From a virus, in IMG/VR virus record IMGVR_UViG_3300042934_000859, positions 1 through 29,859 of that record: 29,859 nucleotides of DNA. One strand, written 5' to 3'. Shown here in pieces: positions 13,872 through 29,330 of the stretch. The notes under the pieces are model-generated. The model ran no database searches and had not been told where the DNA came from. It saw nothing but the letters and a program-made list of their open reading frames with translations. Position numbers and translations under genes: made by a program. Positions within the stretch are counted from its first letter, which is position 1. Each line of letters starts with the position of its first letter.

Positions 13872-13906
13872 ATTTTGTTTCACCTCCAGTTGCTTAATGT
13901 TTTATT

Positions 13907-13951
13907 GCACAAAAATATCCACTAATTAGTTAATTAGTGGATACAATCTAC
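13907..13951 (-). repeat. Hairpin element copy 1 (GTAGATTG family)
   Basis: On the minus strand: GTAGATTG (13951-13944), a perfect 13-bp stem with two-base centre (13943-13931 with 13928-13916), then TTTTTGTGC (13915-13907). The stop codon of the 99-aa gene lies eight bases before it. The T run after the stem could make it an intrinsic terminator. The flanks are shared with two other copies whose stems are different. Confidence 0.85.
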
Positions 13952-13959
13952 AATAAATA

Positions 13960-14259
13960 TTAATCTTTATTAGCTATTTTCCAAACCTTATGATTTCTTA
14001 TTTGACTATCGTGATTCTGTTCCCAAACCGAAATCATTGCAATTTCTTCTCCAAATTCTACAGTTTTATATTCAGAATAATTTAACTTCCAATCATATTT
14101 ATTAATTAACTCTAATGTTTCCCTTAAAGATTTTAATGTTGCTATGTAGTCGTTATTTACATTTTGATGTTCTCTAAGCTTTGTAAGTCTTTCATTCAAT
14201 TTATTTGCTTCTTTTTTGAGATTCGAAACAATTTCATCATAAAAATTTATATTTTCCAT
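13960..14259 (-). CDS. Hypothetical protein, cassette-like (99 aa)
   Basis: I chose the ATG at 14259, eight bases after GGAGG; the frame is open further upstream to 14292 but across the ribosome site and an inverted repeat. Residues 1-60 are a probable coiled coil (NLKKEANKLNERLTKLREHQ), followed by a short beta-like part with two tryptophans. No family recognised and no membrane segment. The gene is bounded by a hairpin element of the GTAGATTG family on each side, one immediately after its stop and one upstream behind the previous gene, like a cassette. An imperfect dyad AGTGATCGGTCACT lies at 14273-14286 just before the ribosome site. Confidence 0.65.
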   Translation of the reverse strand: MENINFYDEIVSNLKKEANKLNERLTKLREHQNVNNDYIATLKSLRETLELINKYDWKLNYSEYKTVEFGEEIAMISVWEQNHDSQIRNHKVWKIANKD

Positions 14260-14312
14260 AATAAATACCTCCAGTGATCGGTCACTACCCAATAATTAAT
14301 TTGTGCCTTACT

Positions 14313-14353
14313 GCACAATAAAAGCCACTCAAAATTGAGTGGCTTCAATCTAC
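14313..14353 (-). repeat. Hairpin element copy 2 (GTAGATTG family)
   Basis: On the minus strand: GTAGATTG (14353-14346), a perfect 11-bp stem (14345-14335 with 14332-14322), then TTATTGTGC (14321-14313). The preceding stop codon is eight bases away, with the same TATTTA-type spacer as copy 1. The stem sequence is unrelated to that of copies 1 and 3. Confidence 0.88.
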
Positions 14354-14361
14354 AGTAAATA

Positions 14362-14568
14362 TCATTTAGTTGGTAAAATAGACATCAAAATATTTCTTAA
14401 ATCTATATCTCCAATATCTTTACCAGTTGCAACTTCTCTTATAGTTAAATTACTTTTAGGATTTAATTTACCTTCAATAGTAACTATTTTTCCTAACGCT
14501 GTATCCCAAACAATCCCCATAAAACCGTCATGATCGGTAAATCCATACATTGGAACACTATCTTTCAT
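14362..14568 (-). CDS. Hypothetical protein, cassette-like (68 aa)
   Basis: I prefer the ATG at 14568 because AAAGGG lies about nine bases upstream; the ATG at 14577 directly touches that site. The protein (MKDSVPMYGFTDHDGFMGIV start, NILMSILPTK end) looks like a small beta-rich domain with a final helix. There are no cysteines, signal peptide or membrane segment. No family recognised. Its stop lies eight bases before hairpin element copy 2. Confidence 0.6.
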   Translation of the reverse strand: MKDSVPMYGFTDHDGFMGIVWDTALGKIVTIEGKLNPKSNLTIREVATGKDIGDIDLRNILMSILPTK

Positions 14569-14613
14569 TTTAAACATCCCTTTCTTTTACAAATAAAATG
14601 CTTCTTTTAACGA

Positions 14614-15105
14614 CTAAATACACTTAATTCCTTTTATCGCAAATAATTCTCTAAATCTTGTTAATAGATGATTGTCACTCAAAAGTTGTTTATATGTATT
14701 TTCTACTGGATGAGTTCCTTCAAATTGATATACAAGAGAATCACCATTACCATATTCAACAAAGTAAGGAATAGCATCACTCCAGTCAGAACCATCTATA
14801 ATACTCATATGTCTAGACCAAGGTTTATCCGCAGTTCCGTCTAAAGGTATGATCTTGTCTGTATCGTAATATATTTCTACTTGATATTCTCCATTTATCT
14901 TTTTAACTGGACTTACAGTAATAGAATGAAGGAGCTGCATGGTTCTTTCGTACTGTTGAGGTGTATATGCTCTTTGATACCAGCCCACATTGACCTCTGC
15001 GTAAAGAATATCAAATACCTCTTTACCAATACGAGTCATAAAATCAATCATATACTGCTTCTCAAGAAAATCGTTAAGAGATTTTAAGTCATGAAATTCA
15101 GGCAT
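14614..15105 (-). CDS. Hypothetical phage protein, possibly minor tail (163 aa)
   Basis: The ATG at 15105 overlaps the stop of the upstream gene as TAATG, so the pair is translationally coupled. The protein has an N-terminal helix (LKSLNDFLEKQYMIDFMTRI), then WYQRAYTPQQYERTMQLLHS and a beta-rich part with several tryptophans. The layout loosely recalls gp10-like tail-completion or minor structural proteins, but I cannot assign a family with confidence. It lies between the tail tube and the tape measure, at the edge of the cassette-like region. Confidence 0.65.
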   Translation of the reverse strand: MPEFHDLKSLNDFLEKQYMIDFMTRIGKEVFDILYAEVNVGWYQRAYTPQQYERTMQLLHSITVSPVKKINGEYQVEIYYDTDKIIPLDGTADKPWSRHMSIIDGSDWSDAIPYFVEYGNGDSLVYQFEGTHPVENTYKQLLSDNHLLTRFRELFAIKGIKCI

Positions 15106-15428
15106 TAATTAATACCTCTAATCTTTATATTTTTATTCAGTTCTGATATGACTTTCTCAACGTCACAATCTTCTGTCAGCTTAATATTTAAATTAACAGT
15201 AACTGTTTTGATTGATTTTTCGAATTCTGAAAATCTTTTTAAAACGTTAGACAACTTATCTTTTAAGTCATTTAATTCTTTAATTGTGCTTAATGGAGAA
15301 ATATTTTCTGGTTCGGTGAAAATGCGTAAATTATTTAGAGTGGGCAGACCACCTGAAACATAATTATTTAATCTTTGTGAACATTTTTCACAGGCGTTTG
15401 AGCTAGCTAGTGAACAACAGCATATCAT
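15105..15428 (-). CDS. Hypothetical Cys-rich N-terminus protein (107 aa)
   Basis: The ATG at 15428 lies three bases past the upstream stop; its ribosome site AGGTGAAT covers the end of that gene. Residues 1-16 read MICCCSLASSNACEKC and hold five cysteines, suggesting a metal site or a lipid-modified or membrane-contacting start. Residues about 45-75 are helical (IKELNDLKDKLSNVLKRFSE) and the C-terminus is a short alpha/beta unit. No family recognised. It overlaps the next gene by one base. Confidence 0.65.
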   Translation of the reverse strand: MICCCSLASSNACEKCSQRLNNYVSGGLPTLNNLRIFTEPENISPLSTIKELNDLKDKLSNVLKRFSEFEKSIKTVTVNLNIKLTEDCDVEKVISELNKNIKIRGIN

Positions 15429-15430
15429 AA

Positions 15431-15877
15431 TTATTCACCTATGCTTTCATCTGTATTATCAGATTCATTCTTTAAATCTTCAAGTAATTTATCCATATTA
15501 TTTTTATAAACTTTCATTTTTTCAGTAAACTTTTTAATTTCATCTTGATTAAATGCATTAATGATAGTTTCAAAATAACCTAAATCTACAAGTATGTTAT
15601 AGAATTGTATTTGTTCATCAAAAGAATCTGAAATATCAATATCAGTAAAATGTTTTATAAATAATATATAAGAAAAATCAGAGAGTTCCATTTTAATATT
15701 ATTTTCTTTCATATATCTAGATTTTTCTAAAACTTCTTGAACCAATTCAATTATTTTTGTTTCACGAAATACCTCATCTACTAAGATAGTAAAATCTCCA
15801 ACAATTATTTTCTTCTGTGTAAATTTCTTATTTTCCAGAGTCTTAAGACTACCTAAATTCATTTTTTTATTTGACAT
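15431..15877 (-). CDS. Probable tail assembly chaperone-like protein (148 aa)
   Basis: ATG at 15877 follows GAGGT. The protein is mainly helical and acidic at its C-terminus (NESDNTDESIGE), with an N-terminal beta strand pair (KKIIVGDFTILVDEVFRETK). Size, composition and position between the major tail protein and the tape measure fit the tail assembly chaperone place in siphoviruses. A TTTAAAG heptamer at 15470-15476 sits in the correct frame for -1 slippage, but the shifted frame stops after one codon, so I see no productive gpG-gpGT style fusion. The call rests mainly on context. Confidence 0.5.
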   Translation of the reverse strand: MSNKKMNLGSLKTLENKKFTQKKIIVGDFTILVDEVFRETKIIELVQEVLEKSRYMKENNIKMELSDFSYILFIKHFTDIDISDSFDEQIQFYNILVDLGYFETIINAFNQDEIKKFTEKMKVYKNNMDKLLEDLKNESDNTDESIGE

Positions 15878-15901
15878 AGTATTAACCTCACTTATATTAT
15901 A

Positions 15902-16489
15902 TTATTTTAATTTTGAATACTTATTGCACTTAAAATCAGAAATTTCTTCCTGAATTCGTCCTTCAATAGCCTTATTTAATATAGAACATTTTCCATCCTT
16001 ATATCTTTTACATGCGATGCAATTAGATTTAAAATCCTCTAATTGTTCGACTGTAGGGAAAATACCTACATAGTCAACAGGATAAATGATGATATCTATA
16101 TGAGGATTTGCACTATCATAAAATACACCGTTTACTCTTTCACATGTTACATTATCATCTAGCCATATTAATTGTGTTTCTGTTATAGAATCAAGTAACA
16201 ATTTAAAATAGTTATTTGCATCCTTATCTATTCTGTCAAAATAAAAAACACAATCAATATAGAAGTGTTGTGTTTTATTTGGAATCAGATTCCACTGTTG
16301 CAACTTAACTTGCTCTTTAATATATTTTGTAAATTCTTTCTTATATTTTTTTGCTTCAGCAGTTTCATACATAGTAACTTGCGCTATTGGTTTTCCCTTT
16401 ATTTTTGTGATAAAACCCCTCGGCTTTATGTAATGATTTACACTGACAGGAATAGGAGATATAAGTTTTAATGTATTTAATATTATAAT
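15902..16489 (-). CDS. RusA-family Holliday junction resolvase, non-canonical start
   Basis: The frame is open from just after a TGA at 16492-16490. The N-terminal RusA signature PVSVNHYIKP lies upstream of the first ATG (16372), so that ATG cannot give a full protein. No ATG, GTG or TTG precedes the signature; the candidates are ATT (16489) and ATA (16486, 16483), right after AGGAAGTGA. Start is therefore uncertain, with up to 195 residues. RusA enzymes cut four-way DNA junctions as dimers using Asp residues. Here the usual D-x-D-N-x2-K reads DANNYFK (residues 90-96 of the long form), so the second Asp is Asn; Asp100 and Asp111/112 remain. The C-terminus adds a Cys cluster (CIACKRYKDGKC and a later Cys). 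It may be a weakened or decaying gene, an unusual start, or a sequencing error. Confidence 0.75.
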   Translation of the reverse strand: MIILNTLKLISPIPVSVNHYIKPRGFITKIKGKPIAQVTMYETAEAKKYKKEFTKYIKEQVKLQQWNLIPNKTQHFYIDCVFYFDRIDKDANNYFKLLLDSITETQLIWLDDNVTCERVNGVFYDSANPHIDIIIYPVDYVGIFPTVEQLEDFKSNCIACKRYKDGKCSILNKAIEGRIQEEISDFKCNKYSKLK

Positions 16490-16498
16490 TCACTTCCT

Positions 16499-16786
16499 TT
16501 ACTTTGATATTTGTTTTGTAAATTCTTTAATTATTGATAATAGGTTTCTTGCATCCTGTTTTTGAAATTTTAAAGTAATTTCATTTGGAGTTTCAGAAGA
16601 ATTATCAATTGATTTTAACTGAAGATATTGAGTAGTTATAGATGTTTCAGTAGGTGGAGTTGTTGATTCATCGGTAGTTGTTGTCGTTTCTGAAAATATT
16701 GAAATTTCAAGACTTGTAGCATCTGATTCAGGAATAGTTGCATCATGTAAGACTTCAGGAAATTGAGTATAGGATATATTAAGCAT
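16499..16786 (-). CDS. Hypothetical Thr-rich protein (95 aa)
   Basis: The ATG at 16786 follows GGAG. The middle of the protein is an acidic Ser/Thr-rich low-complexity stretch (ETTTTTDESTTPPTETS), and the C-terminus is a helix (LLSIIKEFTKQISK) after a strand EITLKFQKQD. No family recognised. It is the first gene after the terminator that ends the head and tail-tube unit. Its stop overlaps the ribosome site of the RusA gene. Confidence 0.6.
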   Translation of the reverse strand: MLNISYTQFPEVLHDATIPESDATSLEISIFSETTTTTDESTTPPTETSITTQYLQLKSIDNSSETPNEITLKFQKQDARNLLSIIKEFTKQISK

Positions 16787-16831
16787 TTAAATACTCCATT
16801 CTTTAATTTTTAAATAAACGAAAAACAAGAT

Positions 16832-16874
16832 AAAAAAGGGAAGGAGGGAGGCAAATTATTTCTCCGACCTTCCC
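16832..16874 (-). terminator. Intrinsic terminator after the tail tube unit
   Basis: On the minus strand GGGAAGG (16874-16868) pairs with CCTTCCC (16844-16838), with a large loop that can pair further (GGAG/CTCC). A six-base T run (16837-16832) follows. It separates the 80-aa gene from the accessory block. The sixth T and adjacent TATC make it a good canonical terminator. Confidence 0.8.
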
Positions 16875-16879
16875 AATTT

Positions 16880-17122
16880 TTATTTAGATTTGGATTGTTT
16901 AACTTCATCGGAAAAATCAACATCTTTCCATATAATATCATTGTCTTTGGGACTAAGAAAATTAGTAATACAAAACTCATCAAATGCTATTTCTGCATTT
17001 CCATCTGTTATGTATAGCTTACCATTCTTCTTAAAGATTGAATAAATTCTATCCATGTAAATACCATCACATGGACATGCTGGCGAAGTCCAGATAGCCT
17101 TTACATTGTTATATTTAACCAT
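16880..17122 (-). CDS. Small protein following major tail protein (80 aa)
   Basis: The ATG at 17122 has GGAGG upstream; the gene begins 18 bases after the tail tube gene. Residues 12-19 read SPACPCDG and a further Cys lies near 51. The core looks like a small beta barrel (GKLYITDGNAEIAFDEFCIT), and the tail is charged. No family recognised. Close coupling to the major tail protein suggests a structural or assembly role. A terminator directly follows its stop. Confidence 0.65.
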   Translation of the reverse strand: MVKYNNVKAIWTSPACPCDGIYMDRIYSIFKKNGKLYITDGNAEIAFDEFCITNFLSPKDNDIIWKDVDFSDEVKQSKSK

Positions 17123-17140
17123 AAGAATTCCTCCATATAA

Positions 17141-17899
17141 TTAAACTTCAACATAATTCATCATATCGCCAGCGTTATCAGCAAGGATATCCCATTCAAT
17201 ACTTAACTTTGCAACATTATTAACATCCATTGTTAAGCTAACATTTGATTTAGGCTTAACATTAAGTAATTGATACTGAACGAATTTATCAACCTGATCT
17301 GTACCTCTAATAGCGCTGTCAGCGTAAATTTTGTATCCCCCTGGGAAAGATACATTATCAACAGTAAACTTAGTCTTATTTGCTGAATTTACTAAATAAT
17401 AGCAAACAACAAATCCAGCACTTGCAAAAGTGGTAGCATTAAAGGTTAATGCATTCGAACCGTCAATTGAGAAAGCATTTTGAGTCGTAGTAGGATTTCC
17501 ACTAACCTGCTCAGTATCATGTGCTGTTTCACCTTTAGATGCAATTTTAAAAATCACTAATGAGCCACTTTTAGGAGCAGCAGATAATGGATTTGCACCT
17601 GCACCACCAGCATTTACAGCAATTACTTCACGTTTTGCTATATCAATAGCTCCAGTACCTAATGTAGTTCCAAAAAGCATCGCTAACCATTTTGTTTCAA
17701 AAACTTCCATCTCTGTCTTAAAAGTACCTTCACGCTGAGAGTCAAATCTAACTGATTTAACACTTTTATTCATCGCATAAACACTGTTAGCTGTAAAGTC
17801 AATTGATGAGGTAAGCGCATAGTTTGCATACAATACAGGCTTGCCTGTTGCTTGCGAAATGATTTGCATATTTGCTGCATCTTTTATTGCATAAAGCAT
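17141..17899 (-). CDS. Major tail (tube) protein
   Basis: The protein has 252 aa, with ATG at 17899 after GGAGAT. It is beta-rich with Gly/Ala/Thr-rich loops, and has SSIDFTANSVYAMNKSVKSV and FDSQREGTFKTEMEVFETKW, typical of siphovirus tube proteins, plus a conserved-looking end (NVSLTMDVNNVAKLSIEWDI). Residues about 105-185 look like an inserted loop or Ig-like addition. Position after the tail terminator-like gene fits. Tube subunits polymerise as hexamer rings around the tape measure. A short hairpin terminator lies directly upstream of the gene. Confidence 0.85.
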   Translation of the reverse strand: MLYAIKDAANMQIISQATGKPVLYANYALTSSIDFTANSVYAMNKSVKSVRFDSQREGTFKTEMEVFETKWLAMLFGTTLGTGAIDIAKREVIAVNAGGAGANPLSAAPKSGSLVIFKIASKGETAHDTEQVSGNPTTTQNAFSIDGSNALTFNATTFASAGFVVCYYLVNSANKTKFTVDNVSFPGGYKIYADSAIRGTDQVDKFVQYQLLNVKPKSNVSLTMDVNNVAKLSIEWDILADNAGDMMNYVEV

Positions 17900-17940
17900 A
17901 TTTATGATCTCCTTCCGAAACTTCTATAATATTTTACTTA

Positions 17941-17965
17941 ATAAAAATAAAAAGCCTTTCGGCTT
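17941..17965 (-). terminator. GAAA-loop hairpin terminator before the tail tube gene
   Basis: On the minus strand AAGCC-GAAA-GGCTT (17965-17952) is followed by TTTTATTTTTAT. The stem is short but the GNRA-type loop and T run fit a terminator. It begins two bases past the stop of the upstream gene and lies about 40 bases before the tube gene start. Confidence 0.7.
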
Positions 17966-17966
17966 A

Positions 17967-18683
17967 TTACTCTTTTGACATATTTTCAATTTTAATTAGT
18001 TCAGTCCAATGTTTATCTTCAATTAGTGATTTTTCACCACTAATTAAATATATACTGAAGCTATCTTTATAATTTGACATTCCAACTTTGGCTTTATAGC
18101 AATTCATTATCTCCCAAAGGGTAAAACTACGAATAATATCCTTTGATATATAATATTCACCACCATATTCACAAACCTGTAAAACATCTTCCAACCTTAA
18201 TTCATTTCTTCTAGAATTACGTTTTCTACCTTCTTGAAGCTTAAGCCAGATATCTTTTTGCCTTTCATTAGCGAACACTGGAATCTTCTCTTTTTCAGGT
18301 CTTTTTCTAGCACATATATCAAGAATTATTTCAGCAAATTCATCAAAATTATCTCTGTTTAATCGACCTTTAAAGCCTTCCATATATAATCCATAAGAAT
18401 CATGTCTGATTCTTGATTTGGTAAAAAACTTTAACGATTTATACAATAATCTTACTATGCCAAAAGAACTCATCACGATATCAAAACTTTTGATTTGATT
18501 TTTTTGCTCTTCAGATAATTCAACATTCAGACTATCTATAGTAATGTAATAGGGAAGAAGTAACTGTTCAAATTTGGGAATTTTATATTTTAAGATTTCT
18601 CCAAAACTTGGTTGGTGAATAATACAAATATCATGGAAATCTATTGGTTCTTGCATTTTATAGTATATTATATTATTTTGCAT
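17967..18683 (-). CDS. Hypothetical phage protein upstream of tube gene (238 aa)
   Basis: ATG at 18683 follows GGTGAT, 12 bases past the previous stop. The N-terminal half is helical around FGEILKYKIPKFEQLLLPYY. Residues about 145-175 are basic (NERQKDIWLKLQEGRKRNSR), followed by a short helical domain. It somewhat recalls Gp15-type or other tail assembly proteins, but I cannot assign a family. The basic linker could bind nucleic acid or an acidic partner. There is no membrane segment. Confidence 0.65.
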   Translation of the reverse strand: MQNNIIYYKMQEPIDFHDICIIHQPSFGEILKYKIPKFEQLLLPYYITIDSLNVELSEEQKNQIKSFDIVMSSFGIVRLLYKSLKFFTKSRIRHDSYGLYMEGFKGRLNRDNFDEFAEIILDICARKRPEKEKIPVFANERQKDIWLKLQEGRKRNSRRNELRLEDVLQVCEYGGEYYISKDIIRSFTLWEIMNCYKAKVGMSNYKDSFSIYLISGEKSLIEDKHWTELIKIENMSKE

Positions 18684-18695
18684 TAAATCACCAGC

Positions 18696-19184
18696 CTACT
18701 TAGCAAAATCAGTAATATGATATTGTAAAAAAACACCAATATAATCCGTACCAATAATAATTTCTTCAATTCGCTTATCACTAATTTTACCAATACCAAA
18801 TCCGCTTGTACTAAACATCATATTATCTATCTCATTTGCAATAAAACCATGTCTTTGACCACTTTCAGTTTGTACTAAACCCATATGACAAATGACATAA
18901 ATTCTTATCCATCCATTGGTAATAGAGGCACTTGACGAATCAACTATTCCTAATGAAACTGTAATATAACTTTTTTCTTCTTTAAAAGTTGTTGTTACAG
19001 GCATATATGGGTATAATTGCTTATATAATAACGAATCACGAAAATTTTGATCGTTCAATTGTGGATTAACGTTATCAATAAAATGTGGTGTATTATCAAT
19101 AAGAGCTTTTATAATATTCTCATTAAGTAGCATTTTATTTAGTGCATCTGATTTATAGTTAAATAATTTCTGAACAGAATTCAA
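18696..19184 (-). CDS. Tail terminator / tail completion-like protein (162 aa)
   Basis: TTG at 19184 follows GAGGTG with seven bases of spacing. An N-terminal helix region (LNKMLLNENIIKALIDNTPH) precedes a beta-rich domain with ITNGWIRIYVICHMGLVQTE and DYIGVFLQYHI. Length and order (after head completion, before tube) fit siphovirus tail terminator proteins that cap the tube and join it to the head. The assignment rests on context and fold impression. Confidence 0.55.
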   Translation of the reverse strand: MNSVQKLFNYKSDALNKMLLNENIIKALIDNTPHFIDNVNPQLNDQNFRDSLLYKQLYPYMPVTTTFKEEKSYITVSLGIVDSSSASITNGWIRIYVICHMGLVQTESGQRHGFIANEIDNMMFSTSGFGIGKISDKRIEEIIIGTDYIGVFLQYHITDFAK

Positions 19185-19200
19185 TTATATACACCTCACT

Positions 19201-20418
19201 CTATATCAAACTAATTATTTTTATTTGTCTTTCAATATAAATATCAGGGTAAGCTAACATGTATACCTTTAGTTTAATGTATTTGTTATAGACAGACGCT
19301 GCTGTAATGACTATGGAATTGTTATTTATGGTATATGTCGCATACTGAATAGCAGAACCATCAACATTTGTTATTTCGAAGCCAACTTGTTTCAATGGGT
19401 CAGTTATTCCATTATTTGTTACCATAACACTTAAAGAAATTGAACGGCTTGATTTTATAAAAGAATCAGACGGAGTTAAAACAATATTATAGTAATCTTG
19501 TGTAATTACATCTGATTGAATTTGAATAATAGTTTCAGCATTACCAAATTTCACTTTAATATTCGTTATACCTGTTCCAACCAAGGTAATAAGGCCAGTA
19601 GGGGAGACAGTGCAAATCATTTCATTTTCTGATATATATGTAACCTGTGAGTTATCAACTATTTCTCCATTTGCTTTACAAGAAACATCCAATTGAAACG
19701 GCGTATCGCCAAAGAATTTCTTAATTAAAGTACCATTTAGTACAATTACTTCATAAATATTTTGATGACTGTTAAAGTTAGCAATTCCTTCTACAAGATT
19801 ATCATCAACTTCATCAATTTCACATAAACTTAATTTAATTGTCTTCAGGCCAACATTGCTTAAATCATCATAACCTTCACATTTGAATGCTCTGTTATTA
19901 AGTATAAATCTTGTACCAACATCAATTACTTTTGTTAACGAATTATCTGGAATAATAACCTGATAATCTGTTGTAATGGTCGTAATCAATTTATTACTGT
20001 TTTCACCCATATTTGTTTTAAATGGAGTAGTTATAATACATGGAGTCTCAACAAGCACCCATAAAATACCGTTTTCATTGTCTTTAATATAGAATTTTAA
20101 TGTATTGTTTGACTGTTGGACTGTAGCTTTTTTATAAACAAAGTTATCTTCAATTTTTGATGTTACGATGTAACTATCATTATCCACTTTTATAATTGAG
20201 CCAGTTTGAATATTTAGTGATTTCTTACATATTACATAATATTCCCCTTGTCCTTGCGCCAAAGCATTAGAATGTTTTTGAAATAGAAAACGTGTTTCTA
20301 GAGTATCAATTAAACCATCTACTCCTTCAATGCCGCTCAATTGATATTCAAAAACTCTTTGTCCATCTGTAATCAGCTTATCATTGTAAGAGGGGTAATA
20401 ATTTGAATAATCTTTCAT
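19201..20418 (-). CDS. Head completion (stopper-like) protein with two Ig-like domains
   Basis: The protein has 405 aa, with ATG at 20418 after GGAGG. Residues 1-200 resemble a head-closure or stopper type protein (LETRFLFQKHSNALAQGQGE, then beta strands around GSIIKVDNDSYIVTSK). Residues about 220-303 form a Big_2-like bacterial Ig domain, with TVSPTGLITLVGTGITNIKV as its signature. Residues about 308-405 look like a second Ig-like domain. Stoppers are normally 100 to 150 residues, so this is a fusion. The Ig domains would decorate the neck and may bind carbohydrates or stabilise the joint. The order before the tail terminator supports the call. Confidence 0.65.
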   Translation of the reverse strand: MKDYSNYYPSYNDKLITDGQRVFEYQLSGIEGVDGLIDTLETRFLFQKHSNALAQGQGEYYVICKKSLNIQTGSIIKVDNDSYIVTSKIEDNFVYKKATVQQSNNTLKFYIKDNENGILWVLVETPCIITTPFKTNMGENSNKLITTITTDYQVIIPDNSLTKVIDVGTRFILNNRAFKCEGYDDLSNVGLKTIKLSLCEIDEVDDNLVEGIANFNSHQNIYEVIVLNGTLIKKFFGDTPFQLDVSCKANGEIVDNSQVTYISENEMICTVSPTGLITLVGTGITNIKVKFGNAETIIQIQSDVITQDYYNIVLTPSDSFIKSSRSISLSVMVTNNGITDPLKQVGFEITNVDGSAIQYATYTINNNSIVITAASVYNKYIKLKVYMLAYPDIYIERQIKIISLI

Positions 20419-20430
20419 ATTACTGTCCTC

Positions 20431-20826
20431 CTATATATAATCTTCCGATGAGTTTAATATCAATTCTTCAATGGTTGCTTTCTCGAAATTTATTAAATCT
20501 TTTAAAGCAGATATTTGAGCCTGTATATTCTTGACACCAACATCTTTACTAAATGGATTCCATGTTGTTGAAAAGTCAACCAACTGTTTTTCTAAAAATG
20601 AGAGTTTAATATAATGAGCTATTAATATTATTTTGTCATCATTTAAGTTCTCATTTATTATTTCAACCGTATCATCACAGGTAATCAAATCTTGTAATCT
20701 ATTATTATAATGCCTAACACCAGAACGAATTGCGTTGTATTTTCCTTCGTCTGTTCTTGGTAAATTTATTTCACTTGTCTTATTTATTTCTAAAAACTGT
20801 ATCCAAATCTCATCATAGGCAGTCAT
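20431..20826 (-). CDS. Head-tail connector (adaptor-like) protein (131 aa)
   Basis: ATG at 20826 follows GAGGTGG. The protein is almost entirely helical, with TDEGKYNAIRSGVRHYNNRL and a long C-terminal helix pair (IQAQISALKDLINFEKATIE). This fits gp6/adaptor-type connector proteins that sit under the portal. Order after the capsid genes supports this. The next gene starts 12 bases later. Confidence 0.6.
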   Translation of the reverse strand: MTAYDEIWIQFLEINKTSEINLPRTDEGKYNAIRSGVRHYNNRLQDLITCDDTVEIINENLNDDKIILIAHYIKLSFLEKQLVDFSTTWNPFSKDVGVKNIQAQISALKDLINFEKATIEELILNSSEDYI

Positions 20827-20841
20827 ATAACCACCTCACTT

Positions 20842-21312: not shown

Positions 21313-21345
21313 AAAGCAAAACATCCTCCCTGTTTTATATATAAT

Positions 21346-21373
21346 AAAAGGGAGGGGTGTTTCACCCCTTCCC
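21346..21373 (-). terminator. GC-rich hairpin / leaky terminator after major capsid gene
   Basis: GGGAGGGGTG (21350-21359) pairs with CACCCC-T-T-CCC (21363-21373), ten pairs with one bulge and a three-base loop. On the minus strand it is followed by only TTTTATTA. It lies directly behind the capsid gene and could lower transcription of the downstream neck genes. Confidence 0.75.
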
Positions 21374-21389
21374 GTTATTATTGAAACTA

Positions 21390-22436: not shown

Positions 22437-22464
22437 ATTAAATACCTCCAATTATGTATTATAT

Positions 22465-22998
22465 TTATTTAGTTACTTCTAGACGAACCAGAGTTTGCCC
22501 ATCAATTGTCATTGTCTCATCGTCATTAGCTACAACTAAAAATTGATTTGCAGAAGTAGCGTAATCAGCATGAGCAGTACCAGCAGTTGAGATTATGAAC
22601 TTCTTGGTTGTTACATCAAAATGTGCAACCTGTCCATTAATAAGATCAGTCACACCAGCATTTAACGTAAAAGCAGAAGTTTCAAATCTTACTCCTAACT
22701 CTAGGAATATAATTCTAGCTGCTTCTCCAACCTCATTATAAAAATCACACATCTGTTCACCATCAACATAACGTCTTTCTGGTGCGGCTATAAGATAACC
22801 TTTTGTTGTCTTGTTAGAGAGTTGCTTTGCAATTCTTTCACCATTTGCATTGAATCCTAATTCTACAATTGTAAAATTATCAACATCTGCTGTATCAATT
22901 ATTGCTCCATAGGGGAGAGTTCTTATTTTCCAACTATTTATTGAACCCACAGAGTGAGTTCCTTTAGTAATTAATGCTTTAACTAATCTTGAAGCCAT
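22465..22998 (-). CDS. Capsid decoration / head fibre-like protein (177 aa)
   Basis: ATG at 22998 follows GGAGGTAATATA. The protein is beta-rich with an N-terminal basic start (MASRLVKALITKGTHSVG) and a C-terminal Ala/Thr-rich domain (ISTAGTAHADYATSANQFLV) that ends in short strands. It lies just upstream of the capsid gene in the operon, where decoration proteins are commonly found. It has a Cys near residue 84. Assignment by position and composition. Confidence 0.55.
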   Translation of the reverse strand: MASRLVKALITKGTHSVGSINSWKIRTLPYGAIIDTADVDNFTIVELGFNANGERIAKQLSNKTTKGYLIAAPERRYVDGEQMCDFYNEVGEAARIIFLELGVRFETSAFTLNAGVTDLINGQVAHFDVTTKKFIISTAGTAHADYATSANQFLVVANDDETMTIDGQTLVRLEVTK

Positions 22999-23030
22999 AT
23001 TATATTACCTCCTAATATTATAATGTTTAG

Positions 23031-24533
23031 TTAAATACCATATCTACTCTCAAAATCTGAGTTTGTTGGTATTAAATTTTGTTGTTTACTTGCCACTTCT
23101 TTTACTACTAGTTGTCTATCATCTGATTTAATTTGAACCATATCAACCAATATAGTATTAAGAGATAGAATCGCACTCGTTCCTTCTTCATTTTCATTAA
23201 TGGATTTTTTAATTAAATCTTGGATTTCATCAGAGTCAAATTTATCCATAGCATTTACAGCTTTAAACTTAGTAGAATAATATTCTTTCTTTGAATTAAC
23301 GGCTTTTTCTATTGATTCAGAATTAAACTGATCGACAATGGGCGCCATTTCATCAATTTTTGTATTTAATGACGTGATTTTTCCTGTAGCATCATTAAGC
23401 TGTTTCGTGATGTCATTGTTGTTAATAGTAAGAGAAGCAACTGTTTCATTTGCTGTATTTAGCTGAGTAGTTAAATCATCAACTTTAATATTAAGTTCAT
23501 TAATAGATTGTTCCATGACTCCAACTTCAACCCATACAGTATCTCTTTCAACCTGTGTTTGATTAGCCAAATCAATGAAAACTTCTGTTTCTGTTTTGGT
23601 ATAAGATAATTTAAAATTGACGTATTTATCACTTACATAGTTTTCATAAACAAAGTAAGTATCATAAATAGCATAATTTGAAACCCATACATATCTAAAC
23701 TCATCAGCAGTCATTGTTTTGGATAATGCAGTCATTATTTGTTCTCTTATATCTCCATGTGATAGCTCACACAAAGCTTTATAAAACATATTTTCATTCA
23801 CCGATTTATCCTCCTTTTGGATGTTATTTATATAATCAACATCGTTTGATGTTTTTTGATTATTTTGTTTAATTGATTGTGCAATAGCCTTTTGCCATCT
23901 TTCATTTAATGACATTAATTTTGAAGAATCATAAGCAGGAGGTATTATTTTTGAACCATTCTCTCCTGAACCAAGAACTGCATGTCCTGAAAAAAGTAAT
24001 GGGCTTTTAATAATTTGAACACCATCATTAACCTCATAATTTTTATAGTAATATTCACATGAACTAAATAACGGTAATCCACTATCGTAAATCTCGTTAA
24101 TTAGCTGTAAAATTTCAACATTTCTATCTTTCCAACAATAAAAATCTGCCATTAATAATTCGATATCATTTCCTTGCTCATCTTTGATTGTTTCAAAGTA
24201 ACCACATTCTAAAGCAGTTCCTATAGCAGTTGAATTCGAACCAACATATTCATTACCATATCTATCTATTTTTATTGCTTCACCATGATCTCCAAAATGA
24301 TCATCAGGATTATTAATATCAATAGTTGGATAATAAACGCAAACAAGAGGCTTACCTTTTACAGATGGAGCAGCTTCAATGGCCAATTCTTTTGGAATTA
24401 TTTGTTTATTTCCGCTAACATTAAAATCAATCATACTAAATGTTAATTTTAATAATAGGGGGTCGTTATCAACTGATTTAATTGAATTTAATTGGAGTTT
24501 ACATATACCTTTTGTCATTTCATCAATGTTCAT
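23031..24533 (-). CDS. Probable prohead protease-scaffold fusion (500 aa)
   Basis: ATG at 24533 overlaps the preceding stop as TAATG. Residues 1-200 resemble phage head maturation proteases or DUF2213-type proteins: EAAPSVKGKPLVCVYYPTID, GDHGEAIKIDRYG, SSCEYYYKNY and SPLLFSGHAVLGSG. Candidate catalytic His and Ser residues lie in these motifs, but I cannot name them. Residues about 330-400 are a coiled coil (ELNIKVDDLTTQLNTANETV), followed by a helical acidic tail. An N-terminal protease fused to a C-terminal scaffold is common where no separate scaffold gene is present, as here. Confidence 0.6.
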   Translation of the reverse strand: MNIDEMTKGICKLQLNSIKSVDNDPLLLKLTFSMIDFNVSGNKQIIPKELAIEAAPSVKGKPLVCVYYPTIDINNPDDHFGDHGEAIKIDRYGNEYVGSNSTAIGTALECGYFETIKDEQGNDIELLMADFYCWKDRNVEILQLINEIYDSGLPLFSSCEYYYKNYEVNDGVQIIKSPLLFSGHAVLGSGENGSKIIPPAYDSSKLMSLNERWQKAIAQSIKQNNQKTSNDVDYINNIQKEDKSVNENMFYKALCELSHGDIREQIMTALSKTMTADEFRYVWVSNYAIYDTYFVYENYVSDKYVNFKLSYTKTETEVFIDLANQTQVERDTVWVEVGVMEQSINELNIKVDDLTTQLNTANETVASLTINNNDITKQLNDATGKITSLNTKIDEMAPIVDQFNSESIEKAVNSKKEYYSTKFKAVNAMDKFDSDEIQDLIKKSINENEEGTSAILSLNTILVDMVQIKSDDRQLVVKEVASKQQNLIPTNSDFESRYGI

Positions 24534-24694
24534 TATTTGTTGTCACCTCCAATCTCTTTCCAAAACAGGTCTGTAATTTCTATAATTGACATTTTTTCAA
24601 ACCCATCAATAGGCTTAATTAATCTACAACCATTAAAAGATATAATTACGTTACATTTATTTTTGAATACTAAAATATCACTTTTCTTAATCAT
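24533..24694 (-). CDS. Small protein between portal and protease (53 aa)
   Basis: ATG at 24694 has GGTGGTGA directly after the portal stop as ribosome site. It gives 53 codons and ends TAA overlapping the next ATG by one base (TAATG). The protein begins MIKKSDILVF, holds two cysteines (NKC, NGC) and ends helical (SIIEITDLFWKEIGGDNK). No family recognised. The tight coupling on both sides makes it a real gene. Confidence 0.7.
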   Translation of the reverse strand: MIKKSDILVFKNKCNVIISFNGCRLIKPIDGFEKMSIIEITDLFWKEIGGDNK

Positions 24695-24705
24695 TATGTC
24701 ACCAC

Positions 24706-26226
24706 CTACGATTGAGGAATTGCATTTCCATCGTTCGTTTTACTTCTTTGAGTATTTTCGTTATCAGGATTGTCAATAGCTGTCCTGCCATTATTTGTGT
24801 CAGTTTTGCTTATTGTTGAAAAAGTTTGTGGTGGTATAATTTTTTCACGTAATTTAAGTGTTTCAATCTCATATAAGGATTGTAGATAATATTCTTCCCA
24901 TGAAATATCACTAATGCAATCAATAATGGCTTTTGTAGAATATCCCTGTCCCTGAAGAGATTTCAATGCATCAAGTTTATCTTTTAGGCTTAAAGGGGCT
25001 TCTTTATCAAAGACAATTCTATAATCATCTGAAGTATAATTAGGTAAAATTATGTTCAGAAATTTGCTCCATATTTGATCTTCAATTTCTTCAAGCAAAA
25101 CAGCAATTTTCTTGTAGAAAACTTCAAAATTGATCTTACCTGAAGCAAAATTGCCACCTGTACCATCTTTCATCGTTCCACCAGTACCAAGACTTGAATT
25201 AATATCGGAGTTTATTGTCTCGAACTTTTTAGGGTCAAGTGCATCCGCTTTTGTATCATTAAATTCCAAATCTGACCACTCGGGAATAGCTATTACTGGA
25301 GTACCCGTTTTTTCATTATCAGATAATGCGTTTTTAACACCTGCAACAACTTTCTTTTTAAGTGGGGAAGGAGGATTTGGCGTTTTTTCATTGCCAAGTT
25401 TAAGTATTGCAACAGCGCGAATAATTTTATTAGCAATTGCGACTTCCATATCTTTAAGTTTTTTCTTATGAGTTATATCCATCAGTCCTTGCGTAGCCCA
25501 AGGTATACCTAATCTTTGATTTCTCTTTGTGGTATGGGTTCTTATTACACAAGTTCTTTCTTGAGGTAATTCAATATATCTATAATTTTGATTATCAATT
25601 AAATATTTTTCATAATCCGATTTATCAACATATGGAGATAAATTTCCCCAAATATCTTCTCGTTCGTCTTCTTTCATATTTGAGAACCAAGATAAATCTA
25701 ACCATGCTATCCATTCACCATTTTTTCTATATGCAGGAAATATATATTCAAGATTATCAAAAGTATAAAAGTAAGGATTTTTCTTATCTCCAAGCCACAT
25801 TCCAACCAAAGTTCCAGCTGTAATTTCTTGTCCAATTATATCTCTTGTTAAGGTACGATATTTGACTTTATTAAGCATCTTATTAATAAGAAGAATATTT
25901 TTTTCATAACTTTTTGACTTATTATAGACTTCAATTTTATGATTAAGGGTAGGAAGTACTTTTGCCAGATCAAATTGTTGGAAGACATCACCATTAGAAA
26001 TATAAAAATATTGAGAAATATTTTCTAATTGCTGATGATACCTGTCTGGATTAGCAAACCATTTAACTAAATCTTCTGTTTTAACTTCTTTTATAATTCC
26101 ATCATAAAATACTTTACTTATAAACCCTTCAACTACATTATGCGTGTAATCTTGATATGTGTTATTTTGTTTTTCAACTTCTTGCTCAGGGAGCAGAGGA
26201 GAAGTAACTTTTTTTGTTCTTGACAA
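24706..26226 (-). CDS. Portal protein
   Basis: The best start is TTG at 26226, eight bases after AAAGGAGGTGA; the frame opens slightly earlier with a GTG inside that site. The protein has 506 aa. It shows the portal pattern: an N-terminal stem/wing region (NPDRYHQQLENISQYFYISN, YRTLTRDIIGQEITAGTLVG), the LGIPWATQGLMDITHKKKLK region and a helical C-terminal half with a polar tail (TISKTDTNNGRTAIDNPDNE). It follows the large terminase. It forms the dodecameric ring through which DNA enters and leaves the capsid. Confidence 0.85.
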   Translation of the reverse strand: MSRTKKVTSPLLPEQEVEKQNNTYQDYTHNVVEGFISKVFYDGIIKEVKTEDLVKWFANPDRYHQQLENISQYFYISNGDVFQQFDLAKVLPTLNHKIEVYNKSKSYEKNILLINKMLNKVKYRTLTRDIIGQEITAGTLVGMWLGDKKNPYFYTFDNLEYIFPAYRKNGEWIAWLDLSWFSNMKEDEREDIWGNLSPYVDKSDYEKYLIDNQNYRYIELPQERTCVIRTHTTKRNQRLGIPWATQGLMDITHKKKLKDMEVAIANKIIRAVAILKLGNEKTPNPPSPLKKKVVAGVKNALSDNEKTGTPVIAIPEWSDLEFNDTKADALDPKKFETINSDINSSLGTGGTMKDGTGGNFASGKINFEVFYKKIAVLLEEIEDQIWSKFLNIILPNYTSDDYRIVFDKEAPLSLKDKLDALKSLQGQGYSTKAIIDCISDISWEEYYLQSLYEIETLKLREKIIPPQTFSTISKTDTNNGRTAIDNPDNENTQRSKTNDGNAIPQS

Positions 26227-26274
26227 GTGAAATGTCACCTCCTTTGTGCATATTATTTATTATAATATTTTATT

Positions 26275-28080
26275 TTACCAATAGACCATTGGGTCGTCCT
26301 CATCATATTCATCCATAGGTTTTAACAAATCTAATTCTAATAATGAAATAAAATAATTACCATATGAACTACTTGTATAACGGTCTTTTCTTGCAGTACC
26401 CACTGTTTCTAATTTAATATATCCACCAGAAAAAGAATACTCAAGATTAATAGATTCATTTACTAATAGCATTGTTTCAATATACGGTTTAATAAACCAT
26501 GCATTTAAATTAACATCTTGACTACGTGAATATTCTTTATTATATTTTGATAAGTATTCTTCGGCATCACTGTCTTCAATTAAAAAACTGCACATACTTC
26601 TCTGTAATTTATCTCGAAAATCAACTGCTATATCATTATTCAATTTAGAATTTGCCAATATAGGATATATAATCGGTTTTGCGTTTACCGCTAATGTTTT
26701 CTGCTGTAATTCATCGATTAATTTTTTGTCAAGCGATTTGTGTTCGAAAACTGTAAAAGCCTCATATTCAATTCCGCGCTCCTCATCTTTAGTGATGGTT
26801 GCTAATCTTTCAAATACTGTAATACCTGCTTGTTGAAGGTCAAGTACTATGTAATCTGCTTCAAAATCATAATAGATTTGTTTTATTCGTAATGACTGTT
26901 TCCCTGTATGCTCACCTTGATGCGATTCGATATAAACAAATTCTCTTTCATAACCTTTGGCTGTTGGTAATCCTCTGATACACGATATAATAGTATTATC
27001 GTTATTTGACCCTTTTCGTGTTGCTATATCTACACTAACAATCCGTATCTCACCATCAACTTTTTTTATATCATATGGATTTTTCTTTTTATCAAGTATA
27101 TCACTTCGCAAAGGATAGAATGACTTTTTTAGATTTCTATTTTTTTTAAACATGTCAAGTTTAAAATAGGAATTACTATTTTCACCCCAAGGGATATTTT
27201 CATACTCTTCAAGAAAAGTAATTTCATCCATAGTTGATCTGTCTCTTGCGATAGCTTTTTTTGTTTTAATATTGTGCTTAATTGCAAGTAGATAATCAAA
27301 AGCAATAAAGCCAGCTTCTTCACCTTTTAACATCATTTTTATGGTATCCAAAGTTTCTTTATACCACCATAAACCTTTATGGTATGCTGAAGATATTAAT
27401 ACCTGTCTTGGCTCTTCAACCAATTCTTTAACATTTTCATATTTGGGATTTTTTAAAAAAGGTGCTTGTCTAGCATATGCAAATGGTTTTACTATACTAT
27501 CAAACTTTTGCTTATCCATAATTCGAAATTCTTCACCAATAGTAAAAGTTGAACGCTCTCCACGGCCACTTTCTTGACAAGCAACGACCTTAACTGTAGA
27601 ACCATTATGTAATACGCACTTACAATTATTTTGAGTATCCGAAAAATCCTGAACTTCTCTTGCAATATTTGGATAATCGTCTTTCAATCTTGCCATTTTT
27701 CCAAATATAATTGCTGCCTGTTTCATAGAAGCTGCAACAATTACTATTTCAGAATTGGGATACAGACATGCTCTGGCATAAGCTAATAATGCTATTAACC
27801 ATGATTTGGCTGAAGCCCTCGAAGCAATTGTAACAAAACTTTCGCATATACTCATAAAGTATATCCAAACAATCTGATACCAAAATAATTGAACTCCAAA
27901 ATAGTGTTGAATAAATCTATGAATATTTCGTCTATAGAAAGTAATCCAATCTATAAGGTTATCTTGCCATTGCTCATTTCTGTCTTTTTCTTTTGTCATA
28001 GATTTTGGAGCTTTAAATAGATTAGAATGACCTGCATATTTTTTAAAATTATTTTCATAATTAGTGTACGATCTAGCCAT
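26275..28080 (-). CDS. terL: Terminase large subunit
   Basis: I chose the ATG at 28080 (MARSYTNY) after AAGGTGA; it overlaps the small-subunit stop by eight bases. The protein has 601 aa. The ATPase domain has a Walker A-like SRASAKSW (about 87-94), a Walker B-like TFTIGEEFR (about 178-186) and LISSAYHKG as coupling motif. The nuclease domain carries Asp in IVSVDIATRKG (about 351) and YIVLDLQQAG (about 414), typical of the RNase H-like fold. It pumps DNA into the prohead through the portal and cuts the concatemer. The usual terminase and portal order supports it. Confidence 0.93.
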   Translation of the reverse strand: MARSYTNYENNFKKYAGHSNLFKAPKSMTKEKDRNEQWQDNLIDWITFYRRNIHRFIQHYFGVQLFWYQIVWIYFMSICESFVTIASRASAKSWLIALLAYARACLYPNSEIVIVAASMKQAAIIFGKMARLKDDYPNIAREVQDFSDTQNNCKCVLHNGSTVKVVACQESGRGERSTFTIGEEFRIMDKQKFDSIVKPFAYARQAPFLKNPKYENVKELVEEPRQVLISSAYHKGLWWYKETLDTIKMMLKGEEAGFIAFDYLLAIKHNIKTKKAIARDRSTMDEITFLEEYENIPWGENSNSYFKLDMFKKNRNLKKSFYPLRSDILDKKKNPYDIKKVDGEIRIVSVDIATRKGSNNDNTIISCIRGLPTAKGYEREFVYIESHQGEHTGKQSLRIKQIYYDFEADYIVLDLQQAGITVFERLATITKDEERGIEYEAFTVFEHKSLDKKLIDELQQKTLAVNAKPIIYPILANSKLNNDIAVDFRDKLQRSMCSFLIEDSDAEEYLSKYNKEYSRSQDVNLNAWFIKPYIETMLLVNESINLEYSFSGGYIKLETVGTARKDRYTSSSYGNYFISLLELDLLKPMDEYDEDDPMVYW

Positions 28081-29053
28081 TAGTATCACCTTCTACATTG
28101 CCAACATCGACACTATCCAAATCAGCATCAATGTTATCATCAACAAGGAAATTCCTCACTCCAGTTAAGAAATTTTCTATTGGGCGAACAATGTAGTTTT
28201 TTATATAAGGTATAAATCCATCCATATCCTTATATTTCTCTTGTTGGTCAAACCATTCAGCAGGTCTAAATTGTTCTATATCTTTAACCCATATTCCAAA
28301 TGCATCGTGTGATTTTCCAGCACTTGCAGCATTAGCTTTGGCAGGGTCGACCGAAGCTGTCTTCATTAAGTCTTGAAGTTCTTTTTGAAGATTCCCAACA
28401 GAATCTTTGTTTTCTCTCGCTTTTCGAATTTCTAGGATTTTAATGCAAATTTCTCTTAAAAGAGTTAGTTCTGCTTGATTGTCACATTTATGAGTTTTCT
28501 TCCAGTTTGATAATTCTGTTTCGAGGAAAATATAATCATCTATATCATCAAAACCTTTACCCCAAAATAAAAGGAAATCTTCATCAATGTTTTCATCAAT
28601 AAAGATTTCTTTATCATCAATCAAATAATCACTATCTTTGTATCTAAAGGATTGCATGCCTGAGTTTTTCTTTCCAGTTGAGCTAAGTTTACTTTTGTAT
28701 GTACCAAATACTTTATCTATATTTTTACCTTTGGTCATAGCAGTTTCAAGTTGCGATTGAACCTGTTTAATTGCCTCTTTACTTAATCTAACATCTAAAT
28801 CTTGACAAGTAAGCTGCAATGCAACTTCAAAATTATTATAAATTTTAAAATAATCATCAAATAAGCCATTACAACAATCGCTGCATATAGACATTTTCCC
28901 ATTTGCATCTAGTACGGCATTCGTAGCATCGTAGAATTTATCAAGACTAATTGTTCTTTGACATTTTCTACAATATCCTTGACCAGACACAGGTTTATTA
29001 AGTCTGGAATTATTACTTTGTCTAGCCAATTTATTCAACTCCTTTAATTCCAT
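28073..29053 (-). CDS. terS: Terminase small subunit, zinc-finger type
   Basis: The ATG at 29053 gives 326 aa but has no good ribosome site. AAGGAG lies inside the first codons, nine bases before a TTG (residue 8), so translation might begin there. Residues about 28-61 form a Cys4 zinc module (CRKCQ ... CSDCC, FYDATNAVLDANGKMSICSD), as in the small-terminase-like proteins of clostridial and lactobacillar phages. The rest is helical and acidic, with a linker near ASAAKSHDAFG. It probably recognises the packaging site and recruits the large subunit. Position before terL supports the call. Confidence 0.7.
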   Translation of the reverse strand: MELKELNKLARQSNNSRLNKPVSGQGYCRKCQRTISLDKFYDATNAVLDANGKMSICSDCCNGLFDDYFKIYNNFEVALQLTCQDLDVRLSKEAIKQVQSQLETAMTKGKNIDKVFGTYKSKLSSTGKKNSGMQSFRYKDSDYLIDDKEIFIDENIDEDFLLFWGKGFDDIDDYIFLETELSNWKKTHKCDNQAELTLLREICIKILEIRKARENKDSVGNLQKELQDLMKTASVDPAKANAASAGKSHDAFGIWVKDIEQFRPAEWFDQQEKYKDMDGFIPYIKNYIVRPIENFLTGVRNFLVDDNIDADLDSVDVGNVEGDTNG

Positions 29054-29092
29054 TTTTGCATTCAGGATATAAAATCAACCTTTTATATTCTT

Positions 29093-29239
29093 TTAGTTTA
29101 ATTTTAAATTATATAAATGATAATTCTGATCTTTACGAATTTCTGACCAAAATATTTTACGACACTCAGTATCGCAAAACTCACCAGAATTAATTATAGT
29201 TCCACATTGTTTACATATTTTAATTTTTATATCTTCCAT
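29093..29239 (-). CDS. Small zinc-ribbon protein (48 aa)
   Basis: I chose the ATG at 29239 after GGAG; a longer frame to 29284 would begin with TTG inside hairpin element 3. The protein has C-x2-C and C-x3-C (CKQCGTI ... FCDTECR) with ten residues between, a zinc ribbon, and then a helix (IFWSEIRKDQNYHLYN). Small proteins of this type are often found in phages near packaging genes; the role is unknown. Confidence 0.65.
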   Translation of the reverse strand: MEDIKIKICKQCGTIINSGEFCDTECRKIFWSEIRKDQNYHLYNLKLN

Positions 29240-29278
29240 AACTTTATCTCCATTAATTATTTTAGCGCCATTTTCAAG

Positions 29279-29321
29279 GCACAATAAAACCCCTACAAAA
29301 ATGAATAGGGGTTCAATCTAC
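29279..29321 (-). repeat. Hairpin element copy 3 (GTAGATTG family)
   Basis: On the minus strand: GTAGATTG (29321-29314), an 8-bp stem AACCCCTA/TAGGGGTT (29313-29306 with 29295-29288) around a ten-base loop, then TTATTGTGC (29287-29279). It lies nine bases after the stop of the 108-aa gene. The flanks match copies 1 and 2, about 15 kb away, while the stem does not. Confidence 0.88.
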
Positions 29322-29330
29322 TTTGAAATA

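Follow-up and report, generated by a model that had tools for sequence, protein, structure and literature searches.

A covarying two-stem RNA element with a conserved internal loop between genes of a probable SPbeta-like phage: a possible mRNA processing signal

Introduction

Why should hairpins of unrelated sequence, set in nearly identical surroundings, recur directly behind small genes of a phage? Three such hairpins occur in a stretch of viral DNA of 29,859 nucleotides (IMG/VR record IMGVR_UViG_3300042934_000859; "the window"), and a sequence-only reading had proposed that they either form a phage-specific terminator/antiterminator module or serve as recombination sites for gene cassettes. 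The window contains a late gene module (terminase to tape measure) and a recombinase gene at the position of yomM in SPbeta, although its terminase is only about 35% identical to YonF of SPbeta. The late genes of SPbeta form a single operon, which is transcribed by the phage polymerase YonO (PMC5467207). A gene for YonO would lie outside this 30-kb fragment but is present in two better-covered relatives that carry the element, G001 and G004 (51–55% identity).

Results and Discussion

The three hairpins were found where they had been reported, on the minus strand, each immediately preceded by a stop codon, and with inner stems that pair perfectly despite their unrelated sequences. The pattern GTAGATTG-N-TTGTGC occurs three times in the window, compared with 0.00 expected from 100 shuffles. 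The earlier statement that the flanks are not clearly complementary was mistaken: the "conserved flanks" form the internal loop within a larger structure, whose outer stem had been missed. The left arm of the outer stem consists of what had been called a TATTTA-like spacer plus GTA, and the right arm of TGC plus the next 7 bases. The copies are arranged as follows.

13900..13958, minus strand: copy 1, whole structure (5′ outer arm 13958-13949; 5′ loop GATT 13948-13945; inner hairpin 13944-13915; 3′ loop TTTTG 13914-13910; 3′ outer arm 13909-13900)
14306..14360, minus strand: copy 2, whole structure (5′ outer arm 14360-14351; loop GATT 14350-14347; inner hairpin 14346-14321; 3′ loop TATTG 14320-14316; 3′ outer arm 14315-14306)
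29272..29328, minus strand: copy 3, whole structure, its outer stem carrying a single A.C mismatch (5′ outer arm 29328-29319; loop GATT 29318-29315; inner hairpin 29314-29287; 3′ loop TATTG 29286-29282; 3′ outer arm 29281-29272)

The minimum-energy folds of copies 1 and 2 include the outer stem (z of -5.7 and -5.6, respectively), the arms of copy 2 being AUUUACUGUA and UGCAGUAAGG, which pair with U.G wobbles. Copy 3 has a z of -3.8 and, because of its mismatch, its outer stem becomes visible only by comparison with relatives.

The genes that adjoin the copies are listed below.

12855..13883, minus strand: tyrosine recombinase/integrase family gene that follows copy 1, in the position held by yomM in SPbeta
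13960..14292, minus strand: small accessory gene flanked by copies 2 and 1
14362..14577, minus strand: gene for 71 amino acids, its stop codon lying 1 nt upstream of the copy 2 outer stem
29093..29284, minus strand: small zinc-finger-like open reading frame that follows copy 3; the listed start is an upstream TTG, the likely one an ATG near 29239
29331..29657, minus strand: acidic open reading frame of 108 amino acids, before copy 3

Homologues of the 108-amino-acid open reading frame precede an element in many relatives, and homologues of the gene at 13960..14292 (L205, 2520-3080; L035, 199-948) have an element directly in front of them, at the terminase locus.

The family had been reported as three copies, and the search of related phages showed it to be larger: a model was built on 16 distinct members from IMG/VR relatives, and a search with this model found 29 more distinct sequences. 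In IMG/VR, most sequences that fitted the pattern did so by chance within genes, and demanding both stems eliminated them. Read from 5′ to 3′, the element comprises an outer stem, the loop GAUU, an inner hairpin, the loop UAUUG and the outer stem again, i.e., a helix of about 20 bp, free in sequence on both sides, which is broken by an asymmetric internal loop with 4 nt on the 5′ side (GAUU, GAUC or GAUA) and 5 nt on the 3′ side (UAUUG-like). Some divergent members have looser loops, split 5/5 or otherwise. The loop bases and the A-U pair that closes the loop are nearly invariant between the freely varying stems. Both stems covary: 96.7% of the cells in the alignment are paired, with a covariation of 0.87 (0.25 when shuffled) and with changes on both sides in 15 of the 19 pairs, whereas sliding the partners by 1–3 columns leaves at most 51% paired. 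Leaving out the five members that came from a core-dependent scan gives 97.1%, and RNAalifold independently recovers the two-stem fold. The 29 later members retain both stems, forming 16.7 of 17 pairs where shuffles form 13.9, although here the model that selected them rewards pairing. Thus, the proposal that the family is maintained by structure together with its flanks held up, in the form of covarying stems around a conserved core.

Several observations bear on whether the element acts as RNA or as DNA. The 37 conserved G.U cells pair on the gene-sense strand only (96.7% versus 84.5%), which indicates an RNA rather than a DNA element. Nearly all confident matches fall on this gene-sense strand, as do 36 of 36 matches at homing-endonuclease loci. 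All 25 of the members that were checked are outside open reading frames, between cistrons and in the direction of the genes; most of them begin 1–36 nt after a stop codon. Most members precede accessory genes, such as those for recombinases, homing endonucleases and antirepressors. The two-stem structure, the conserved loop, the sense orientation and the intercistronic position are thereby established by comparison of sequences, and by analogy with the SPbeta operon the elements would be transcribed together with their neighbouring genes. They are best read as signals made of structured RNA within the long late mRNA of a phage that is probably SPbeta-like.

An RNA signal behind a stop codon could be a transcription terminator or pause that curbs transcription entering or leaving accessory genes by read-through, perhaps specifically for the phage polymerase. 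In having a strong inner hairpin just after the stop codon, with UUUUAUU next in many copies, the element resembles an intrinsic terminator, and moron genes of other phages often have terminators. The downstream arm, however, covaries with the upstream arm and must therefore be transcribed in order to matter, which argues against a plain terminator. Moreover, the hairpin is followed by the conserved UUGUG rather than by a U-tract: near the 3′ base of the hairpin the longest T run is 2–5 (2 for L205 and L197a, 3 for L220 and L197c), so that several members have no U-run. As a plain terminator, the first of the two original proposals was thus not borne out, and termination or pausing is improbable; antitermination may still play a part.

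The second proposal was that the elements are recombination sites for gene cassettes; if similar to the attC sites of integrons, they would be folded single-stranded DNA at which a tyrosine recombinase moves the cassettes. Comparison of relatives confirmed that the genes between copies come and go at the element borders, present or absent exactly between elements, and arrays of the form gene-element-gene-element occur (the L197 island); like attC sites, the elements follow genes and keep their ends and structure. A tyrosine recombinase gene stands behind some copies, and the one noted earlier does adjoin copy 1, but nothing was found that links it to the hairpins. It belongs to the phage families phrog_36816/phrog_1, is missing beside copy 3 and in most relatives, and counts among the accessory genes that lie behind an element. 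In addition, the outer stem remains whole when genes are gained or lost at its borders. Since both arms of every copy remain complementary, the exchanges fall outside the hairpin, and ordinary homologous recombination between repeated border sequences accounts for them. Unlike in attC, the conserved part is central, without a conserved core at the ends, and the strand bias fits RNA. The terminal core of attC (R boxes, GTTRRRY) is not among the conserved columns, and no integron integrase adjoins the copies, the nearby recombinase being of phage type. A search of 84,980 bacterial and archaeal genomes with the exact core pattern gave four matches, none with both stems. An attC-like recombination site is accordingly very improbable.

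The architecture has a counterpart in phage T7. A purely geometric search of T7 for two helices around a 4/5 loop found nine places, none of them on the other strand, and three of the best four lie beside stop codons at the borders of genes 0.4/0.5, 4.5/4.7 and 18/18.5, places known as RNase III sites. Their loops are ACUC/UAUGA, CCUC/CAUGA and ACUC/UAUGG, respectively. The identical search of the sense strand of the window returned copies 1 and 2 only. In T7, the search, with its 6 + 8 bp setting, did not recover the site R1.1. The 16 model members, with stems of 10 and 9–13 bp around the 4/5 loop, fit the two-helix length of about 18–22 bp of a T7-type signal. R1.1 lies at nucleotide 5887 and drives both the maturation of T7 mRNA and its protection; when the stem of R1.1 is made fully complementary, cleavage shifts from single-stranded to double-stranded (PMC8708148).

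Like the T7 signals R0.5, R1.1, R4.7 and R18.5, the elements lie between cistrons, directly behind stop codons and on the sense strand of polycistronic phage mRNA, and consist of two sequence-variable helices on either side of a conserved, asymmetric 4/5-nt loop; the phage, like T7, would have a single-chain RNA polymerase of its own. They differ in the loop (GAUU/UAUUG here, ACUC/UAUGA in T7), in that the flanking A-U and U.G pairs are also nearly fixed here, in that the phage is of Firmicute type, and in that cleavage of the elements is predicted. Hairpins in the early mRNA of phage SP82 are cut by the RNase III of its Bacillus host, providing a second likeness in phage mRNA of a Firmicute. 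The preferred reading, tentative and with confidence close to evenly poised, is thus that mRNA is processed at the elements as it is at the RNase III sites of T7. A phage-encoded RNase III was looked for and none was found, so the host enzyme would have to cut. It would bind both helices and make a single cut in the unpaired 3′ loop, separating the mRNA behind the stop codon; the upstream mRNA would keep a 3′-terminal hairpin, and the next gene, usually an accessory gene, would obtain its own 5′ end, as at the T7 sites. With similar copies present at so many borders between genes, the elements also serve as passive points of gain and loss for accessory genes.

RNase III requires little sequence, so that a specific RNA-binding protein could be what recognises the near-fixed loop. 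Such a phage or host protein would control the stability, translation or antitermination of the next accessory gene, with the stems merely presenting the loop. The near-invariance of the loop and its closing A-U pair between free stems fits this, as does the association of the element with the same downstream gene at two places in the genome (copy 2; L205/L035). On the other hand, the outer stems of copies 1 and 2 end well upstream of the likely start codons, and in members before endonucleases the distance reaches about 220 nt, which makes direct masking of the ribosome site unlikely; furthermore, the elements precede genes that have no relationship to one another, and no candidate binder was identified. 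Protein binding is thus the less favoured reading, unlikely though not far-fetched. A small self-cleaving RNA, or a stabiliser of 3′ ends without specific cleavage, would also be compatible with a conserved internal loop between two stems, but the core is very short, changes in the loop are tolerated and there is no likeness to any Rfam ribozyme, which leaves such functions highly unlikely.

Comparison with 4227 Rfam families gave no convincing match in the window or in six relatives: permissive thresholds yielded chance matches only, and none of the six relatives had a match at gathering score. The idea of a skipping-rope RNA likewise had no match in Rfam. The RNA model found no match in one Clostridiaceae genome, and matched LC76P1 and LIBA6276 only at E above 0.3. 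SPbeta and TR-TP1, which are close in gene order, have no element by the model search; hence the element is not a general need of phages with YonO.

Conclusion

The elements constitute a strongly covarying RNA family, with several copies per phage genome, which is apparently undescribed so far. They could, on a more speculative and rather unlikely view, represent a new class of phage regulatory RNA in which a dedicated RNA-binding factor or the YonO system reads GAUU/UAUUG, standardising the expression of inserted genes and making the accessory genes plug-in modules of the late operon. If the processing mechanism holds, phages of the YonO type, with a polymerase unrelated to the T7 enzyme, would have reached the same geometry for cutting mRNA, and the rules for recognition of an internal loop by RNase III would be testable over many natural variants. 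The elements would then show, to the base, where accessory genes join the late operon and how an insert obtains its own mRNA.

Three copies and their anatomy

The three hairpin copies that the sequence-only reading had reported in the window lie exactly where it placed them, on the minus strand, which codes for the entire late gene module of the window. With the outer stems obtained by folding, they are as follows.

Copy 1, 13900..13958, minus strand: outer stem UUUAUUGUA with UGCAAUAAA
Copy 2, 14306..14360, minus strand: outer stem UUUACUGUA with UGCAGUAAG
Copy 3, 29272..29328, minus strand: outer stem UUUCAAAGUA with UGCCUUGAAA, one A.C mismatch

Three matches to GTAGATTG-N(20-45)-TTGTGC are present in the window and none in 100 dinucleotide-preserving shuffles, and every copy begins 1–2 nt behind a stop codon. 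The flanks had been described as not clearly complementary; on folding, the bases just outside them also pair, so that the flanks sit within a larger hairpin that had been overlooked. From 5′ to 3′, the first arm of the outer stem is followed by a 4-nt loop (GAUU), the inner hairpin, a 5-nt loop (UAUUG in copies 2 and 3, UUUUG in copy 1) and the second outer arm.

Relatives and covariation

Scans of IMG/VR with the exact core gave many matches, but both stems were kept in only four new loci (L018, L030, L035 and L040), at least three of which belong to phages with related late genes. The genome-wide bacterial scan also used the exact core, which variants would escape. Further loci came from one scan with the terminase and another with the recombinase, and further members from two stem-aware scans, the first permitting three mismatches in the core and the second demanding only AGAU[UCA] and UGU. 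A covariance model (R1), built from an alignment of 16 members, found additional copies in whole phage contigs and at homing-endonuclease loci. The relatives are all metagenomic contigs, many from one sample group, so the members are only partly independent.

Standard pairs fill 96.7% of the pair cells when 16 members are aligned, and 15 of 19 pairs have changed on both sides; double changes occupy 83 cells (21.7 after shuffling), covariation scores 0.87 (0.25 shuffled), and sliding the partners by 1–3 columns leaves at most 51% paired. The first, 11-member alignment had given 97.1% paired, with changes on both sides in 15 of 20 pairs, and RNAalifold independently returned the identical fold. 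The invariance of the AGAU[UCA] and UGU letters in the 16-member alignment is partly by construction, because five members from the later scan had to hold them; the same core conservation is seen in the 11 members gathered before that demand, with three core mismatches permitted. The 29 further distinct sequences inspected keep both stems, with 16.7 of 17 pairs against a mean of 13.9 for the best fits to shuffled versions, a comparison in which the model itself selects for pairing.

RNA or DNA

G.U pairs occupy 37 of 304 cells and are conserved at two positions adjoining the loop. Read on the opposite strand, pairing falls from 96.7% to 84.5%, because these cells become C.A mismatches. Around endonuclease genes, all 36 matches are on the gene-sense strand, and confident matches elsewhere likewise run in the gene direction. 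The highest-scoring opposite-strand matches, at 23.7 bits, weakly mirror a strong element on the sense strand of L199 and of its near-copies L200 and L203. This strand pattern is the expectation for a transcribed RNA; folded single-stranded DNA of the gene-sense strand is a formal, less likely alternative.

Genes at the element borders

None of 25 members lies inside an open reading frame, and the outer stem mostly starts 1–36 nt after the upstream stop codon (at most about 136 nt). The genes downstream vary.

Tyrosine recombinase at the place of SPbeta yomM: window copy 1, L018
Another recombinase-like gene: L253
Family of the small accessory gene at 13960-14292: window copy 2, L035, L205
Small terminase gene, immediately behind the element: L207
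Others: zinc-ribbon-like, BRO/antirepressor-like, and endonucleases with the start MLITKEV

The window recombinase (12855-13883) sits inside the tail module and has relatives at 40–48% identity in many Enterococcus, Staphylococcus and Lactobacillus phages (75–96 kb). A short hairpin, AGTGACCGATCACT, adjoins the ribosome-binding site before the 13960-14292 gene (14237-14290), and a counterpart, AGTGACTTACCACT, precedes the homologous gene in L205 and L035. By eye, a RusA-like Holliday junction resolvase frame was also seen in the late module (15902-16372).

The proposed test for gene gain and loss at the elements gave a positive answer in two comparisons. L214 carries an acidic gene, an element and an endonuclease, whereas L205 carries the acidic gene, element A, an extra gene, element B and the endonuclease; homology stops at element A's left border and restarts before element B, and the extra unit is therefore an element plus a gene. 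Similarly, L197 has element a between the acidic gene and a Zn gene and element b between the Zn gene and a BRO gene, and L220 has a single element between the acidic gene and the BRO gene; the L220 element matches element a from end to end, and what follows it matches what follows element b. A near copy of element b occurs in L265 with other neighbours. The outer-stem arms are still matched in every case, so exchange took place beside the hairpin and not within it, and homologous recombination at the repeated border sequences would suffice as an explanation.

A terminator, attC and a dedicated RNA-binding protein were the readings weighed against the main one (the ALTERNATIVES). An attC site was rejected, as the conserved part is central and not terminal, and the crossovers fall outside. 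A terminator was likewise rejected: the longest T run at the relevant place is 2 in L205 and in element a of L197, and a downstream arm would serve no purpose were transcription to stop ahead of it.

Endonuclease loci

One subfamily of the element, found before endonucleases, has a shifted core (AUAG or AUUG / UUAUUAUG) and is paired almost throughout. The leader before the MLITKEV genes is conserved between phages and contains a second hairpin family (GGGTAGCTCCCT-type) and inverted repeats; L199 has kept the leader and the 3′ end of the endonuclease and lost the middle of the gene. Relatives also have an interrupted large terminase gene, with an endonuclease-like frame as the interruption in L216 and L217.

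Shifted-core members: L214 4907; L272 3721; L274 789; L275 984; L205 3098
Leaders: L205 about 3180-3385; L209 7588-7812; L214 4975-5190; L211 7570-7706; L199 8757-8900
Interrupted terminase genes: L216 9950-12320; L217 3179-6170; L218 968-3228

Comparison with phage T7

T7 was searched by geometry alone, for six outer pairs, a 4-nt loop, eight inner pairs and a 5-nt loop. Nine places fit, all of them on the coding strand, and three of the four best are gene borders, directly behind stop codons.

0.4/0.5: loops ACUC/UAUGA
4.5/4.7: loops CCUC/CAUGA
18/18.5: loops ACUC/UAUGG

These borders are known RNase III sites; the T7 record carries no such annotation. The T7 RNase III signals have the same layout as the elements. 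Among them, R1.1 (nt 5887) drives mRNA maturation and protection, and cutting becomes double-stranded instead of single-stranded once its stem is made fully complementary (reviewed in PMC8708148); it is cut at one bond, giving 47- and 13-nt products (PMC4858673). The setting also matches: SPbeta late genes form one operon, transcribed by the single-chain polymerase YonO (PMC5467207), and YonO is encoded on G001 and G004, two long contigs that carry elements. The G001 homologue (contig 3300025012_000026, 3310-6984) is in two pieces (residues 7-536 and 530-830) about 1 kb apart, perhaps through an intron, intein or endonuclease insertion. Searching SPbeta and TR-TP1 with R1 found no element; its presence therefore characterizes this phage lineage, not YonO phages in general.

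The strongest rival is that a dedicated RNA-binding protein reads the element, because the loop is nearly fixed whereas RNase III alone needs little sequence. By analogy with T7, the element, whose structure, conservation, strand and position are shown by comparison, is probably an RNase III-type mRNA processing signal. Given the T7-like layout and matching setting, we infer cutting by RNase III of the host, which low G+C and the closest terminases suggest is a Firmicute. A single cut in the 3′ loop would leave the upstream mRNA with a 3′ hairpin and would give the next gene a fresh 5′ end.
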